A stretch of DNA of 37,052 nt from NCBI GenBank assembly GCA_021730935.1, contig JAKFYJ010000003.1:1-37052 (forward strand), read 5' to 3'. The notes under the pieces are model-generated. The model saw only the letters and a list, made by a program, of their open reading frames with translations. It did no database searches and was not told where the DNA came from. The translations under genes were made by a program, and so were the position numbers. Within the stretch, counting starts at the first letter, position 1. The number at the start of each line of letters is the position of its first letter. Source of the DNA: Elusimicrobiota bacterium. GTDB taxonomy: Bacteria; Elusimicrobiota; Elusimicrobia; 2-02-FULL-39-32. This document shows, in pieces, positions 23,637 through 32,140 of this stretch.

Positions 23637-24883
23637 AAATGAAAAAGAAAAAATTAGTCGTGATGAAATTCGGCGGATCTTCCGTCGCGGACGCTGAAAA
23701 AATAAAAACGGTCGCGCGCAAAGTTTTCGCGAAAACCAAGCTCGGGCACAAAGCCGTGGTTGTCGTCTCCGCGCCCGGAGACATGACCGACGATCTTTTG
23801 GAGATGGCCGACAAAATTTCCCAAAACCCTCCCGACCGGGAACTGGACATGCTTTTGGCCACGGGAGAGCAAGTTTCCATCGCTTTGCTTTCCATGGCCA
23901 TTCATGAATTGGGCGGAAATGCCGTTTCTTTGACAGGTCCCCAGGCGGGAATTTTCGCCGATTCGTCTCACACAAAAGCGCGCATCACGCAGATCAAGCC
24001 GTCCAAGATTCACGACGAACTCAAAAAAGGCAAAGTGGTCATCGTTGCCGGGTTCCAGGGATTGAATCCCAATCAGGACATCACCACTCTGGGACGAGGC
24101 GGCTCAGATTTGACTGCGGTCGCTCTGGCGGCGGCCTTGAAAGCGGACGAATGCGAAATTTATACAGACGTCAAAGGCGTCTATACGACGGACCCCCGCA
24201 TTGTGCCCGAAGCGCAGAAACTGGACCGCATTTCCTATGATGAGATGCTCGAACTCGCGGGCGCCGGGTCCCAGGTGATGCAGGCCAGATCAATCGAAGT
24301 CGCAAAAAAATATGGAGTCGACATTCATGTCCGCTCAACTTTCTCGGAAGATGAAGGCACATGGATCGTCAAGGAGGTTTCAGGCATGGAAGATGTGGTG
24401 GTTTCAGGAGTGGCATACGACAAGAATCAGGCGAAGCTTTCAGTGACCGACATCCCGGACCGTCCCGGAATCGCGGCGAAAATTTTCGGCGCTCTCGCCG
24501 GCATCCAGGTGAATGTGGACATGATCATTCAGTCCGCTGCGCAGGACAACACCAACGACATTTCCTTCACCGTTTCCAAAGCGGATCTCAAGAAAGCCGT
24601 GCCCTTGCTGGAAAGCGTGAGCAAAGAACTGGGCGGCAAAGGTTTGTTGGTTGACGAAAAAATTGCCAAGGTCGCCATTGTGGGCGTGGGCATGAAAAGC
24701 CATGCGGGAGTTGCGGCAAAAATGTTTGAGGCGCTCGCGCAGAACAAAATCAACATTGAAATGATCAGCACTTCCGAAATCAAAGTCTCGTGCGCCGTCA
24801 AAGAAGAAGACGGACAGAAAGCGGTGCAGGTTTTGCACAAGGCTTTTGGTTTGGGCACAAAAATAAAATCCGGAGCAAAATGA
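23633..24883 (+). CDS. lysC: Aspartate kinase
   Basis: This 416-residue enzyme starts the aspartate family (lysine, threonine, methionine). The catalytic domain has [31 protein letters not shown] and [16 protein letters not shown]. Two ACT domains follow ([16 protein letters not shown] and [19 protein letters not shown]), pointing to allosteric control by end products. The ATGA overlaps on both sides couple it to thrB and cimA. Confidence 0.96.
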
Positions 24884-26502
24884 AGAAAACTGGAAACAGT
24901 TCGCGCGTAAAACTTTTCGACACCACTCTGAGGGACGGCACCCAAGGATCAGGCGTCTCTTTGTCCGTCGAGGATAAACTCAAGATCGCGGTCGCGCTTG
25001 ATAAACTCGGCGTCCACTACATCGAGGGCGGCTGGCCCGGCTCGAACCCGAAAGACGAACTCTTTTTTAAAGAGGCCCGCAAGCTAAAATTCAAGCAAGC
25101 CAAACTGACGGCTTTCGGCTCCACGCGCCGCAAGGACAAGGCCGCTCATCAGGATCCCAACTTGCAGGCCATCGTCCGCGTGAAAACTCCCGCCGCCTGT
25201 ATCTTCGGGAAATCCTGGGACTTTCAGGTGATCCACGCTCTCCGCGCGACCCTCGACGACAACATCAAGATGGTCGGCGATTCCGTCCGCTTTTTAAAAT
25301 CCAAAGGATTGGAAGTCATTTATGACGCCGAACATTTTTTTGACGGATATCGCGCAAATGCCCAGTATGCCCTGGCAACCTTGAAAGCCGCCTCGGATGC
25401 AGGCGCAAACAATTTGACTCTTTGCGACACCAACGGCGGAAGCCTCCCGTCGCATATCCGCGAAATCGTTCAGGCCGTCCGCTCGGAGCTTCCCGGCGCA
25501 TCTTTCGGGATCCACACGCACAATGATTCCGATTGCGCCGTGGCCAACGCTGTCACGGCCATCGAGGAAGGAGTTTCGCTTGTTCAGGGAACCATCAATG
25601 GATATGGAGAACGGTGCGGAAACGCGAATTTAATTTCCATCATCGCCAATCTAAAATTAAAGCTCGGCATCGATTGCGTGAGCCAGGATCAGCTCCAATG
25701 GCTGACCGAAGTCTCGCGCTATGTCGCCGAAATCGCCAACCTGGTTCCCAATGATCATCAGCCCTATGTGGGAGTCTCCGCGTTCGCCCACAAAGGCGGC
25801 GTGCATGTTTCCGCGATGGCCCGCCACACCAAAACTTATGAACACATCGATCCGGATTTGGTGGGCAATGAGCGGCGCATCCTGGTCTCTGAATTGTCAG
25901 GACAGTCCAATGTTCTGCTCAAGGCCAAGGAAATGAACATGGATTTCTCCAAGAACACGGAAGCGGTCAAGTCCGTGATCGAAGCCGTGAAAAAGATGGA
26001 ACAACAGGGATATCAGTTTGAAGGAGCCGAAGGCTCTTTTGCGGTCCTGGTTAAGAAAGCGCTCGGCGAACACCGAACCTTCTTTGATCTTCTGGGGTTT
26101 AGCGTCACGGTTGAACATAACCAAGGCACGGGGGAAATCGTCTCTCAAGCAACCCTGAAACTCAAGATCAAAGGCGAAGTCCAGCACACAGTTTCAGAAG
26201 GCGACGGTCCCGTGAACGCGCTCGACAACGCTTTGCGGAAAGCCCTGGAAAAATATTATCCGACCCTCAAGTCCGTTTCTTTGACGGATTTCAAAGTGCG
26301 CGTGGTGAACGCTTCAGGCGGCACCAAGGCCAAGGTTCGGGTGCTGATTGAGTCCCGCGACCACAAGGACGAGTGGAGCACGGTCGGGGTCTCCGAGAAC
26401 ATCATCGAAGCGTCCTGGCACGCCCTGGTGGACTCGATTGAATATAAACTTTTAAAAGACGCAGTTAAACCGACTAAACGCGGCGGTAAAGTCCATCATT
26501 AA
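24880..26502 (+). CDS. cimA: Citramalate synthase
   Basis: This 540-residue enzyme condenses pyruvate and acetyl-CoA to citramalate, a threonine-independent entry to isoleucine. [48 protein letters not shown] and the LeuA-type C-terminal regulatory domain identify CimA rather than LeuA. The ATG at 24880 overlaps the lysC stop. Its last codons after KLLKD ([13 protein letters not shown]) look foreign: a perfect copy of the preceding 66 bp lies at 27000-27065, followed by a different ending (RLPKRK stop) that is probably the original tail. Confidence 0.94.
26395..26460 (+). repeat. 66-bp direct repeat, left copy (in cimA)
   Basis: It begins GAGAACATCATCGAAG and ends AAACTTTTAAAAGAC; all 66 bases are identical to 27000-27065. 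It is the coding 3' end of cimA ([20 protein letters not shown] and KD). Confidence 0.97.
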
Positions 26503-26972
26503 TGAACTTTTTCAGAGTGGCTCATATTGAAGATAAGTTTTTTCCCGCGATGGGCGTTATTTTTTTTATTGTTTCATGCTTTTTCTGGCATGGCGCGATT
26601 CAATTTAATAAACGGGCAATAAAAACTGAAGGTGTCATCATCGGAAATTATGACGCTGATGTTGTTGGTGGATGGGCGGGCCGAGGGCGCTTCCCAAGCC
26701 TTACCCCTCACAGGTTTTTTCTTCGCGCTTCAAAATTAATGTTTGTAGATCTCAAAAGCCAAGTTCACAATGTAATTCTGAAGGGGAGTTATTATTATCC
26801 GCAAAAGGTCATGATCTTTTATGATCCAGCTGAGCCCGAACATGTATTTGATGAATCGTTTTTTTGGTATAAAGGCTATCCGTGGAAACTCACGGTGGCA
26901 ACTTTGTTAATATTCTTCTTCTGGAGAGATTCTTATATGCATTATTTAAAATCTTTTAGACCGGAGAAATGA
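26502..26972 (+). CDS. DUF3592-like membrane protein carried on an inserted segment
   Basis: This 156-residue protein has two membrane helices (about residues 14-31 and 128-145) around a soluble beta domain with TEGVIIGNYD and a KVMIFYDPAEPEHVF ending, a DUF3592-like pattern. Its ATG overlaps the cimA TAA by one base. It is AT-rich, unlike its neighbours, and sits between two perfect 66-bp copies of the cimA 3' end, so it is cargo of a 605-bp insertion. Function unknown. Confidence 0.7.
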   Translation: MNFFRVAHIEDKFFPAMGVIFFIVSCFFWHGAIQFNKRAIKTEGVIIGNYDADVVGGWAGRGRFPSLTPHRFFLRASKLMFVDLKSQVHNVILKGSYYYPQKVMIFYDPAEPEHVFDESFFWYKGYPWKLTVATLLIFFFWRDSYMHYLKSFRPEK

Positions 26973-26999: not shown

Positions 27000-27065
27000 G
27001 AGAACATCATCGAAGCGTCCTGGCACGCCCTGGTGGACTCGATTGAATATAAACTTTTAAAAGAC
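27000..27065 (+). repeat. 66-bp direct repeat, right copy (displaced cimA 3' end)
   Basis: This is the same sequence as 26395-26460. It continues in the cimA frame with CGCTTGCCAAAACGGAAATAA, encoding RLPKRK and a stop, a plausible native CimA end now cut off from its gene. Confidence 0.97.
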
Positions 27066-27068
27066 CGC

Positions 27069-27098
27069 TTGCCAAAACGGAAATAAACTTAGTATAAT
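27069..27098 (+). promoter_or_regulatory. Promoter of the ilv operon
   Basis: TTGCCA (27069-27074), 18 bases and TATAAT (27093-27098) form a good promoter. The -35 lies within the displaced cimA tail. The transcript would run through the IlvD-like gene, ilvB, ilvN, ilvC and possibly secY onward. Confidence 0.7.
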
Positions 27099-27139
27099 AC
27101 TTGGCTCGCATAAACCGCACCTTATGGCCGAGGGGTGCG

Positions 27140-28807
27140 TTGTGTGCTATTTTTGTCGCATTGAAAAAACAGGTAAAATTGAAAAAGAAAAAAGCGTCAG
27201 CAGATAAAAATAAAGAAGTGTTGCAGTCGACTCCCGCGGCGGCGAACCAAACGCCGAACATCGGGATCATCGGCTGGAACTTGCCCAAATTTATGGCCCA
27301 GCACGAAGGATATCTTGCTGAGATCAAGCGCGGCATCGAATCTTCCGGCGGCCAGACCATTTTTTACGGAATTTCCGGCGGCGCCGATGTTCTCCCAGGG
27401 TTCGCAGGCAACGGGCACAGAGATGCTCAGGGCGACCTCATCAAGAAAACCACCGATTCCAATTTCAAACCCAATTATTGGCTTCCTTCCCGCGACATGG
27501 TGGCTGACCAGATTGAAGTCCTGACCCATCAGGAAAATCTCACCGCGCTTGTGTTCGTCCCCTGGTCTGTCAGTTCCCTTGTGGGAATGATGATGGCAAC
27601 AGCCAGGACCGGCATCCCGGCAATATTTCTTCCTTATTATAAGACCTGGCCCATCCTTTCCAGCTTGGGGGATATTCAGGACAAAAAAGACGAAATCAAC
27701 ATTTCTTATAGCCATTGCTCAAGTCTCCTCCTTCTCGAGATCTTTGGGCTCACGAAGCTGGGCACTCTGGAATCGATTTTTGCCAAAGACGATAAAAAGA
27801 ACGCTCAGACTTTCGCGCTTGGCACAGGATCTGAAATGGACCTGGCGTCCTGGGGCGGGAAGCGAGTCGTGGAGATGGCAAGACAGAACATTTCTTCCAA
27901 AAGATTTTTTTCACAAGCTTCTTTCGGGAACGCCCTTGCGGTGGACATGGCTTTGGGAAACAGCGCAGAAACCGTCCTTCACTTGCGCGCGTTGGCTGTG
28001 GAAGCAGGAGTTCCCTTGACCCCCGCTTTCATCAATGACTATGCCAAGAAAGTTCCCCAACTTGTCACCATGAATTCTTCCGGAGAATTCGCGATGAACG
28101 ATTTCAAGAGCTGGGGCGGAATTTTGCCTCTCCTGGGCGCGCTCAGCGGATTTTTGCAGGCGTCTCCCACCGTGATGGGCCGAAACCTCATTGAGTTCGC
28201 GCGCGATGCCGCGAGCGTGAAATCCCCTTTCAAGATCTCCAACCCCAACCGCAAACACGGCGGGCTCAGCATCCTTTTCGGAAACCTTGCCGCTGAAGGC
28301 GCTGTTTTCAGAGTGGCTGGATTAAAAGAACAGTGGATCAGCGCGAGCGGTCCGGCGAAAGTTTTCAATTCGGAAGCGGAATGCGTTTCTGCGATCCAGA
28401 ATAAAAAAGTTAAAAAGGGCGATGTGATCGTCCTCAGATATTGCGGTCCCAAGGGAAGCCCCGGCATGCCTTCTCTCGATATGGTCCCTCACGCTCTCGA
28501 AGAAAAGGGACTTGAAGACCAGGTGGTGATCGTGACGGACGGACGCATGAACGCGTCGGGATCCACTCCCGCATTTGTGCATGTGGCGCCGGAAGCCGCG
28601 GTGGGAAGCGCTCTTTCCGTGGTTCAGGACGGAGACATCATATTTTGGAATTTCAACGAACGCTCTCTCACGGTGCGTTTAACGGACACAGACATCAAGG
28701 TGCGCCTTTCGCGTTGGCGCGAGCAAGAGAAGAATATGCGCAACAGCTTTTTGTTCCGCTATTCGAAGTACTCCTCTTCCAGCTCCTCTGGTGCAACTTT
28801 AGTTTAA
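27140..28807 (+). CDS. IlvD/Edd-family dehydratase homologue with missing Fe-S cysteines
   Basis: At about 555 residues, this protein aligns by motif to dihydroxy-acid dehydratase: NIGIIGWNL, YGISGG, LPSRDMVADQIEVL, NSAETVLHLRALA, RYCGPKGSPGMPSLDM and VTDGR. Where IlvD has GGCDK it reads VPWSV (about residues 140-144), and the first N-terminal Cys is also absent; only a Cys in SHCSS (about 193) is near an expected ligand position. It may be a degenerate or different dehydratase. The start is unclear: the frame opens at 27101, directly behind the -10, so a TTG at 27140 after GAGGGG is my choice. Confidence 0.75.
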   Translation: MCAIFVALKKQVKLKKKKASADKNKEVLQSTPAAANQTPNIGIIGWNLPKFMAQHEGYLAEIKRGIESSGGQTIFYGISGGADVLPGFAGNGHRDAQGDLIKKTTDSNFKPNYWLPSRDMVADQIEVLTHQENLTALVFVPWSVSSLVGMMMATARTGIPAIFLPYYKTWPILSSLGDIQDKKDEINISYSHCSSLLLLEIFGLTKLGTLESIFAKDDKKNAQTFALGTGSEMDLASWGGKRVVEMARQNISSKRFFSQASFGNALAVDMALGNSAETVLHLRALAVEAGVPLTPAFINDYAKKVPQLVTMNSSGEFAMNDFKSWGGILPLLGALSGFLQASPTVMGRNLIEFARDAASVKSPFKISNPNRKHGGLSILFGNLAAEGAVFRVAGLKEQWISASGPAKVFNSEAECVSAIQNKKVKKGDVIVLRYCGPKGSPGMPSLDMVPHALEEKGLEDQVVIVTDGRMNASGSTPAFVHVAPEAAVGSALSVVQDGDIIFWNFNERSLTVRLTDTDIKVRLSRWREQEKNMRNSFLFRYSKYSSSSSSGATLV

Positions 28808-28825: not shown

Positions 28826-30559
28826 ATGGAAAGAACTGGCGCAGAAATTATCGTTGATTGCTTGATTAAAGAAGGCGTGGATGTGATTTTCGGCATCCCC
28901 GGAGGCATGAACTTGCCCTTCTTTGACGCGCTTTATGGTTCCCGCATCCGCGTGGTGCTGACCCGTCACGAACAGGGCGCGGCCCATATGGCAGATGGAT
29001 ACTCCCGCTCGACCGGACGCGTGGGCGTTTGCACAGCGACTTCCGGACCCGGAGCAACCAATTTGATCACAGGCCTTGCGACCGCGCACATGGATTCCAT
29101 CCCCATGGTGGCGATCACAGGCCAGGTGAAGACGGAAGCCATCGGTTCCGACGCGTTCCAGGAAGCGGACGCCACCGGCTGTTCCCGCCCCATCACCAAA
29201 CACAATTTCCTCGTGAAAGACGTGAAAGACCTTGCGCGCGTCATCAAAGAAGCTTTTTATATCGCCTCCTCCGGACGCCCGGGCCCCGTGCACGTGGATG
29301 TGCCCATTGATGTTCAGCGCGCCAAAACCGAATTTGTTTATCCCGAAACGACGGACATCCGCTCTTACAATCCTGTGTTGAAAAGCGACAAGGAACAGAT
29401 CAAGAAAGCCGTGGAACTTTTCAAGGCGGCCGAACGCCCTCTCCTTTATGTCGGCGGCGGCGTGGTTCTTTCAGGGTCAGCCGGCACCTTGCGTGAAATC
29501 GCGGAAAAAACGGGAACTCCCGTGGCTTCCACTCTCATGGCCAACGGCGTGATGCCGTTTGATCATCCTCTGTATATGGGCCCGCTCGGCATGCACGGCA
29601 AATATTCCACCAACACCGCCATGCAGAAATGCGATCTCCTCATCTCCTGCGGCGCGCGTTTTGACGACAGAGTGACCGGAAAAATTTCCAGCTTTTCTCC
29701 CCTTTCCAAAAAAATCCATTTCGACATCGATCCCGCGAACATCGGCAAAGTGGTCAAGGTGGACGCTCCTGTGGTGGGAGACCTGAAACTCTGCTTGAAA
29801 GAGTTTCTGGACGAATTGCCCCGCATGAACCACAAGGAATGGGCTGATCAGATCCGTGAATGGGACGCGAAACATCCTTTCGCTTACAAAGACGACACGG
29901 AAACTCAATTTATCAAGCCGCAGATGATCATCAAGAAACTTCATGAGCTTACCAAGGGCGAAGCGATCGTGACAACGGGAGTGGGCCAGCACCAGATGTG
30001 GGCCATGCAGTGGTATCCCTGCAAAACTCCGCGTCATTTTCTCACGAGCGGCGGTTTGGGCACGATGGGTTATGGTTTCCCTTCCGCCATCGGCGCCAAG
30101 GCCGGAAATCCCCGGAAAGAAGTGATCTGCATCGACGGCGACGGCTCTTTTCAGATGACCATGTCGGAGATGGCCACGGCGATTCAGGAAAAATATAAGA
30201 TCATCGTGATCGTGCTCAACAATTATTATCTCGGCATGGTGCGCCAGTGGCAGGAACTTTTCTATAAAGAAAGATTTTCGGGCTCTTCCCTCATGGAAAG
30301 CGGAGGGATGGGAGATAAAGACAGAAAAATTAATCCCAGAGAGCTCAAATATATTCCCGATTTCGTGAAATTTGCCGAAGCGTATGGTGCGCTCGGAATC
30401 CGCGTGACCAAAGAATCTGAAGTGGGTCCGGCTCTCGAGAAAGCCCTCAAGGCTGAAGGCCCCGTCATTCTGGACTGCATCATCCACCCGGAAGAAAAAG
30501 TGTTTCCCATGGTGCCTGCTGGAGCGAGCCTGGACGAAATCATCGTGGACTTGGCATGA
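28826..30559 (+). CDS. ilvB: Acetolactate synthase, large (catalytic) subunit
   Basis: This 577-residue thiamine-diphosphate enzyme condenses pyruvate (or with 2-oxobutyrate) in valine and isoleucine synthesis. The catalytic Glu is in TRHEQGAAHMADGY. CTATSGPGATNLITGLA, RFDDRVTGK, and the ThDP motif GDGSFQMTMSE ending in NN are intact. N-terminal PGGMNLPFFDAL replaces the usual GGAVLPIYDAL, a mild change. The ATG follows the IlvD-like gene by 18 bases; the stop overlaps ilvN (ATGA). Confidence 0.96.
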   Translation: MERTGAEIIVDCLIKEGVDVIFGIPGGMNLPFFDALYGSRIRVVLTRHEQGAAHMADGYSRSTGRVGVCTATSGPGATNLITGLATAHMDSIPMVAITGQVKTEAIGSDAFQEADATGCSRPITKHNFLVKDVKDLARVIKEAFYIASSGRPGPVHVDVPIDVQRAKTEFVYPETTDIRSYNPVLKSDKEQIKKAVELFKAAERPLLYVGGGVVLSGSAGTLREIAEKTGTPVASTLMANGVMPFDHPLYMGPLGMHGKYSTNTAMQKCDLLISCGARFDDRVTGKISSFSPLSKKIHFDIDPANIGKVVKVDAPVVGDLKLCLKEFLDELPRMNHKEWADQIREWDAKHPFAYKDDTETQFIKPQMIIKKLHELTKGEAIVTTGVGQHQMWAMQWYPCKTPRHFLTSGGLGTMGYGFPSAIGAKAGNPRKEVICIDGDGSFQMTMSEMATAIQEKYKIIVIVLNNYYLGMVRQWQELFYKERFSGSSLMESGGMGDKDRKINPRELKYIPDFVKFAEAYGALGIRVTKESEVGPALEKALKAEGPVILDCIIHPEEKVFPMVPAGASLDEIIVDLA

Positions 30560-31113
30560 AGAAAAATACGGAGTTGAAACACACGATTTCAGTTTTGGTT
30601 GAAAATCGCGCGGGCGTTCTGGCGCGCATCTCGGGCCTTTTTTCCGCCCGGGGATATAACATCGATTCTCTCGCGGTCGGCGAAACGCAAGATCCGTCCG
30701 TGTCCCGCATGACGATCGTGGTCAAGGGCGACGAAGGCATTTTGGATCAGGTGGAAAAACAGCTCAACAAGCTGATTGATGTCATCAAGCTTTCGGATTA
30801 TATCGAAACTTCGCACTTGGAACGCGACCTCGCCCTGATCAAAGTGAAAGCGGACAAAAACAACCGCTCGGAACTTTTGCAGGTGGTGGACATTTTCCGC
30901 GCGAAAATCGTGGACGTCGCTCCCGGATCTTTGATCGTGGAAGCCACCGGAGACGAAGACAAAATTTTGGCGCTTCTGGATATGCTGAAACCTTTCGGCA
31001 TCATCGAGATGTGCCGCACGGGGATCGTGGCCATGGCGCGCGGCGACGCGTCTCTGACGATTTCTGAAAAGCAGAACAAAGAAAAATCTGAAAAGGTAGG
31101 AGCTCATGTCTAA
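30556..31113 (+). CDS. ilvN: Acetolactate synthase, small (regulatory) subunit
   Basis: This 185-residue protein has an N-terminal ACT domain ([31 protein letters not shown]) and the C-terminal half with [13 protein letters not shown]. It activates IlvB and mediates valine feedback inhibition. The ATGA overlap with ilvB and 8-base overlap with ilvC indicate a single operon. Confidence 0.95.
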
Positions 31114-32140
31114 AACCGAAACCAAAGAAGCCCAGAAGTTTTACGAGAAAGACGCCGACATCAAATTGCTGAAAGGCAAGAAGATCGTCGTTCTGGGTTA
31201 TGGCTCACAAGGGCACGCTCAGGCCTTGAACCTGAAAGACAGCGGTCTGAATGTGACCGTTTCCGTGAGAAAAGGCGGCAAGGGATATAATCTCGCGGTC
31301 AAACACGGATGGCAGGAAGGCAAAAATTTGGTCACCAACAACGCGGAAGCCGTGAAGGGCGCGGACTGGGTTCATTTCCTTTTGCCCGACGAAACCCAGA
31401 GAGAAGTTTGGGAAAACGAAGTCCGCCCCAACCTCAAGAAAGGCGCCGTCATCAGTTTTTCTCACGGTTTCAACATCCGTTTCAGCCAGGTTGTGCCGAC
31501 GAAAGAATGCGATGTGGTGTTGATCGCTCCCAAAGGTCCCGGACATCTCGTCCGCCGGACCTATGAAGAAGGCAAGGGCACTCCCGCTCTCGTCGCGGTG
31601 GAACAGGATTTTAGCGGCAAAGCTTTGAAGCTCGCTCTCGCGTTTTGCGCGGGCATCGGTTCCGCAAGAGCCGGAGTCATCTTGACCACTTTCCTCGAAG
31701 AAACCGAGACCGATCTCTTCGGCGAGCAGACAGTTCTTTGCGGCGGCGTTGTGGACTTGATCAAGGCCGGATTTGAGACTCTCACAGAAGCCGGATATCA
31801 GCCCGAGATCGCCTATTTCGAGTGTCTCCACGAGCTCAAACTCATCACGGACTTGATTCAGGAAGGCGGCATTTCCTGGATGAATTATTCTATTTCTGAC
31901 ACGGCCGAATACGGCGAATATTCCCGCGGGCCGCGCATCATCACGGAAGACACCAAGAAAGAGATGAAGAAAATTCTATCGGAAATTCAGTCCGGGCTTT
32001 TCGCGAAAGAATATATTCTGGAAAACCGCGCGGGACGCCCCATGTTCAATTCTTTGAGAAAGAAAACGCAGAATCACCCCATTGAAAAAGTGGGAGAAAA
32101 ACTTCGGGCCATGATGCCTTGGCTTAAAAAGAAGGAATAA
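31106..32140 (+). CDS. ilvC: Ketol-acid reductoisomerase (class I)
   Basis: This 344-residue enzyme isomerises and reduces acetolactate. The Rossmann loop [36 protein letters not shown], and the knotted domain with [16 protein letters not shown] and ECLHELKLI (metal ligands) are complete. The length marks it as the short, class I form. AGGAGCTC precedes its ATG. Its TAA overlaps the ATG of secY (TAATG). Confidence 0.97.

Follow-up and report, generated by a model that had tools for sequence, protein, structure and literature searches.

The gene at the ilvD position of the branched-chain amino acid operon in the window, by which we mean the whole 37,052-nucleotide stretch analysed here, probably encodes an IlvD/EDD-family pseudoenzyme that serves the synthesis of branched-chain amino acids in a structural or regulatory capacity. 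This reading is based on the loss of the iron-sulfur cluster site, of nearly all Mg residues and of the catalytic Ser, together with a retained predicted fold, purifying selection and the presence of a canonical IlvD elsewhere in the genome. The host is assigned to the class Elusimicrobia, and related loci carry that name.

The cluster-less homologue is encoded on the forward strand at 27179..28807 (542 amino acids from a TTG at 27179), within an uninterrupted frame at 27101-28807. Starting from the TTG at 27140 would make the gene up to 39 bases longer. TTG 27179, which has AGGT just 5' of it and matches the starts of the homologues, is the likely start, since the homologues open with M(A/G)RKK... 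where the window has LKKKKASADK. The protein scores 115.4 bits against Pfam PF00920 (gathering cut-off 27) and 181.1 bits against PF24877 (gathering cut-off 27.7), and these two domains and the predicted fold place it by homology in the IlvD/EDD superfamily. Against TIGR00110, the NCBIfam equivalog of dihydroxyacid dehydratase (DHAD), it reaches 304 bits, below the curated cut-off of 618, and four other cluster-less homologues score 308-375 bits against the same cut-off. A pseudogene or sequencing error was rejected for the window gene. Among the homologues, the copy in G001, a genome of the same genus, is split by an assembly gap of N. In G032 (L043, 7923-9597) the cluster-less IlvD lies in two overlapping frames, through either an assembly frameshift or genuine decay; the genome is 14% contaminated and its split copy remains doubtful.

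Residues conserved in DHADs, namely Cys121, Cys194, Asp80, Asp122, Lys123, Glu446 and Ser472 (PMC9543379, PMC5770437), were followed in an alignment of 23 sister-class and 18 class Elusimicrobia canonical rows with 13 cluster-less proteins (the window protein and 12 homologues). The replacement of GGCDK by VPWSV, which an earlier note had read from the sequence, is borne out by the canonical rows, which have GGCDK or NCDK there. The Cys-Asp-Lys site, comprising the cluster Cys, the Mg Asp and the carbamylated Lys, is S-V-S at residues 130-132 (27566..27574, forward strand; alignment columns 268-270). The third cluster Cys, that of SC[GQ]G, is also gone and is aligned with Ile173 (27695..27697, forward strand), the local alignment being uncertain by a few residues. 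GMREM is changed to GMPSL, with Ser432 in place of the Mg-ligand Glu (28472..28474, forward strand), and RFSGG to RMNAS, with Asn458 in place of the catalytic Ser of DGRFSGG (28550..28552, forward strand). Wherever the sites are covered, Cys121, Asp122, Cys194 and Glu446 are lost in the window protein and all 12 homologues. Lys123 is lost in all aligned cluster-less proteins but one (L017, an isolated K), as is Ser472 in all but L013, and the CDK motif is absent from every cluster-less homologue that covers the site. The residues replacing CDK vary by family, with PWS[VI].S in f1, GD[SA] in f4 and others in f6 and f12 (for example PWSV, GDSH, ADRS and GEQN). In several copies an Asp aligns at the Mg-ligand position Asp80, beside a loop modelled with low confidence (pLDDT under 50).

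The N-terminal Cys, reported missing in the earlier note, is indeed absent; its absence is not diagnostic alone, because Cys48 is found only in [2Fe-2S] DHADs while those of the [4Fe-4S] type have Gly there (PMC9543379), as does the presumed ancestor (VPGH). That cysteines from other positions had moved into the cluster site, which would have undone the note's claim, was rejected: no Cys is conserved across all 13 cluster-less proteins, and the few present fall off the cluster positions. Cys180 of the f1 copies lies ~7 residues from the SC[GQ]G Cys position, at the start of the next helix.

The window gene is not the only ilvD of its genome. A full canonical copy was found on another contig (G000:C52:9183-10865), with the motifs TPCN, GGCDK, SCGG, GMREM and RFSGG and 774 bits against TIGR00110 (cut-off 618). 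The earlier note had left two options, of which dehydration of dihydroxy acids by the window protein without the usual cluster thus finds no support, while the other, that a different enzyme does the chemistry and this gene is used differently, is strengthened and extends to 15 genomes of four families, its actual use being a matter of inference. Any IlvD was found in 20 of the 235 class Elusimicrobia genomes searched. The cluster-less form occurs in 15 of these 20 (families f1, f4, f6 and f12), and every one of the 15 carriers has a second, canonical-type IlvD elsewhere, in some cases fragmentary in the assembly. The IlvD-bearing genomes without the cluster-less form are G002, G039, G012, G013 and G073, the first two being incomplete genomes in which no ilvC was seen either. 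No missing step of branched-chain amino acid synthesis that the window gene might fill was found in the genome, which has two aconitase-family proteins (one LeuC-sized, 468 amino acids) and two IDH/IPMDH-family proteins. Outside the class, G304 carries three IlvD/EDD homologues of different score classes (C11, C65 and C75). The viral contigs searched held no relative, and in the plasmid search the best-ranked matches showed 28-32% identity, the annotated ones being called ilvD or araD.

In the window, the operon has the order thiE-thrB-lysC-cimA-[156-aa ORF]-cluster-less gene-ilvB-ilvN-ilvC-secY-adk-map. The thrB, lysC, cimA, ilvB, ilvN and ilvC products score above NCBIfam cut-offs, whereas thiE, secY, adk and map were named by eye from the sequence. 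The position ahead of ilvB-ilvN-ilvC noted earlier is confirmed by the NCBIfam assignments of the neighbours. On the forward strand, cimA (citramalate synthase, 24880..26502; TIGR00977, 743 bits, cut-off 450) lies upstream, and the genes for the large (ilvB, 28826..30559; TIGR00118, 763 bits, cut-off 538) and small (ilvN, 30556..31113) subunits of acetolactate synthase and for ketol-acid reductoisomerase (ilvC, 31106..32140) follow, while lysC and thrB encode aspartate kinase and homoserine kinase. A 66-bp stretch from the 3' end of cimA is repeated exactly and in the same direction (26395-26460 and 27000-27065), its two copies flanking the inserted 156-aa ORF (26502-26972), which has no significant Pfam match; in the relatives G001, G007, G003 and G004, cimA and the IlvD-like gene show no such insertion between them. 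Just 5' of the cluster-less gene, following the repeated cimA end, lies a near-consensus sigma-70-like site (TTGCCA-18-TATAAT, 27069..27098, forward strand; 11/12, a consensus match only). TATAAT is found upstream of the cluster-less gene in all six f1 genomes checked, that of the window included, and this suggests a putative internal operon promoter ahead of the gene.

The cluster-less gene is located between cimA and ilvB in all four families, wherever the contig shows both sides, and this context is kept at 29-34% protein identity. In those genomes of the class that have ilvC, the gene accompanies native ilvB wherever the latter has remained in the operon, and it is missing from all three in which ilvB is foreign or relocated. 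In G012, cimA-ilvN-ilvC is kept without the cluster-less gene and ilvB (L089, G012:C39), and the ilvB of G013 and G073 is of another kind (45% identity vs 63-77%), neither genome having the cluster-less gene. The native-type ilvB of G012 stands alone on C9 (L114), between thioredoxin-reductase-like and leucyl-aminopeptidase-like genes. The tie to native ilvB may be mere physical linkage, and since three class members with ilvC are without the gene, some lineages can dispense with it. All 12 genomes sampled from other classes of the phylum have a canonical ilvD in the slot after cimA, followed by native ilvB in 11 of the 12, with motifs of the VPGH/NCDK/SCQG/GMREM/RFSGG ([4Fe-4S]) type.

Phylogenetic analysis placed the cluster-less proteins in one clade with support of 100/98, although all are fast-evolving long branches, so that this monophyly could be partly attraction. 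A single origin is supported independently of the tree by synteny and by residue 106, where every cluster-less row that covers the position has Asp instead of Glu, a change unique to the group. With long outgroups removed, the cluster-less and sister-class IlvDs fall on one side of a branch (100/99). Forcing the cluster-less proteins together with the second IlvDs of the class costs 361 log-likelihood units (AU p=5.4e-5), and an origin as a decayed copy of those second IlvDs was rejected accordingly. Descent in place from a working [4Fe-4S]-type ilvD of the cimA-ilvD-ilvB slot is thus well supported by tree and synteny: with a canonical ilvD in the same slot of the sister classes, the operon's own enzyme appears to have died in place while second copies took over. 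The second IlvDs fall among plasmid-borne IlvDs of other phyla in the tree, on at least three separate branches, a TPCN type in f1, another TPCN type in G020 and an IPGH/VPGH type in f4, f6 and f12 (second-copy loci of these multiple origins are L001, L018, L026, L032, L073, L080 and L087). Because of this placement, at least three acquisitions of the working IlvD seem to have occurred in the class, of the Cys ([2Fe-2S]-like) as well as the Gly ([4Fe-4S]-like) type. A simple [2Fe-2S]-for-[4Fe-4S] swap for oxygen tolerance fits only partly, as the second copies in G022, G028, G032 and G033 have Gly at the diagnostic position.

The cluster-less protein is under purifying selection, weaker than that on canonical IlvD or IlvB. 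Between G007 and G008 (95% identity) its dN/dS is 0.16 (p=2e-15), from 49.5 synonymous changes and 30.5 non-synonymous ones, against a neutral expectation of 62 for the latter; the corresponding ratios are 0.026 for IlvB and 0.075 for canonical IlvD, and among the ilv and cim genes compared this gene evolves fastest. An AF2 model of the window protein, built from a 10-row alignment (pLDDT 75, pTM 0.77), has a confident core; confidence is low at the former Asp80/GHEG loop, close to the loop that held Cys194 and next to the one that held Glu446. It matches Synechocystis DHAD (6nte) with Z 35.3 over 455 residues and solved DHADs in general with Z 29-35, the top 17 structure matches all being IlvD/EDD, and the family fold is thus predicted to be kept. 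Within the N-terminal half, conservation is best retained in helix 104-118 (PSRDMVADQIEVLTH; 27488..27532, forward strand), which corresponds to the central helix at the dimer interface of CcXyDHT (PMC5770437). This helix keeps 0.70 of the mean pairwise identity of the sister enzymes and the C-terminal end 0.75, as against only 0.20-0.37 for the old Asp80, CDK, Cys194 and Glu446 loops. R105, D110, E113, N251 and R509, among others, are invariant in the cluster-less proteins. From this pattern of conservation, we infer that the protein may have been kept for its surfaces or assembly, the pocket not being the reason.

Tree and synteny give good support to the following course of events: an ancestor of class Elusimicrobia gained a second IlvD, after which the operon IlvD lost catalysis and yet was kept. 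The dead IlvD would still dimerise via its conserved interface helix and would act by protein-protein contact as a structural or regulatory partner. AHAS (IlvB/IlvN) and KARI (IlvC) are favoured as partners because they were inherited vertically with the cluster-less gene, while the second IlvD was replaced several times; we prefer these operon enzymes to the second IlvD with modest confidence. A stronger proposal, in which the cluster-less IlvD couples AHAS/KARI to the dehydratase step as a required subunit without catalysis of its own, or else has gained a new cluster-free activity, is doubtful.

Pairing of the dead copy with the active second IlvD of the same genome, which it would stabilise or regulate, agrees with the occurrence of a second IlvD in every carrier and with the conserved interface helix. 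Moreover, the IlvD/EDD active site lies at the dimer interface and is shared across the dimer (PMC5770437), so that an inactive half could cover the site of its partner, and dead paralogues that activate partners have a reported precedent in the trypanosomal AdoMet decarboxylase prozyme (PMC5201418). However, with second IlvDs from at least three family branches such pairing would need re-making, and the f1 copies are without the N-terminal RAPNRAML-type stretch thought to cover the active site of the partner, and we consider this heteromer unlikely. The main deflationary rival, that the frame persists mainly for a promoter or for translational coupling of ilvBNC-secY while the protein slowly decays, could account for the fast evolution of the gene between G007 and G008, the promoter-like site directly 5' of it in f1 and its absence from three class members with ilvC. 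It is disfavoured by the selection on the protein, by a frame kept open across four families at about 30% identity and by the invariant residues; a promoter alone, furthermore, needs no 540-codon frame, and such a relic is quite unlikely.

A pocket remodelled to catalyse a different reaction or to sense a ligand would explain why new residues are conserved within f1 at the old CDK loop (PWS[VI].S), as well as E264 and W490. The replacing residues nevertheless differ between families, and conservation is lowest in the former cofactor loops, unlike what a shared new active site would show, making a new cluster-free enzyme improbable. For a cluster-independent dihydroxyacid dehydratase, which only the operon position recommends, the canonical IlvD in the genome, the loss of Mg ligands and catalytic Ser along with the cluster, and the low TIGR00110 score leave hardly any room.

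With [4Fe-4S] IlvDs, such as E. coli IlvD and the sister-class enzymes, the window protein shares both Pfam domains, the fold, the operon slot and the side of the tree, but not the cluster Cys, CDK, the Glu ligand or the catalytic Ser. The sugar-acid dehydratases and Edd (CcXyDHT, RlArDHT and So6PGDHT) are alike in fold (Z 25-29) and, unlike the window protein, keep CDK, the third Cys, the Mg ligands and the Ser, while 2gp4 is cluster-free only as an apo form. The CDK Cys, the third Cys and the Mg ligands are described as fully conserved in the IlvD/EDD family (PMC5770437, PMC9543379), and a lineage without CDK and the third Cys was not described in the open-licence papers found. Our search of the open-licence literature, a limited one and weak evidence in itself, returned no papers on branched-chain amino acid synthesis in Elusimicrobia or on IlvD pseudoenzymes. 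Metabolism offers other cases of a catalytically dead homologue retained alongside an active one, among them the AdoMetDC prozyme (PMC5201418) and the indole-synthesis pseudoenzyme of eudicots (PMC12727527); in these unrelated families partner and effect are demonstrated, whereas the window protein is known from its sequence and a predicted model.

The cluster-less IlvDs are a probable pseudoenzyme branch of a well-known enzyme family. The branch has lost all or nearly all of the conserved cluster cysteines and Mg ligands and has nevertheless stayed in a single operon slot while the class diversified, and to name the operon gene ilvD from its position would be a mistake. The living [4Fe-4S]-type relative in the sister classes, the dead descendant in the class and the second enzymes of several origins form a natural series, along which the replacement of an oxygen-sensitive Fe-S enzyme, and the reason for keeping its dead remnant, can be tested. 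Should the cluster-less IlvD be a required subunit, it would add a hitherto unrecognised level of control or assembly to branched-chain amino acid synthesis in class Elusimicrobia.
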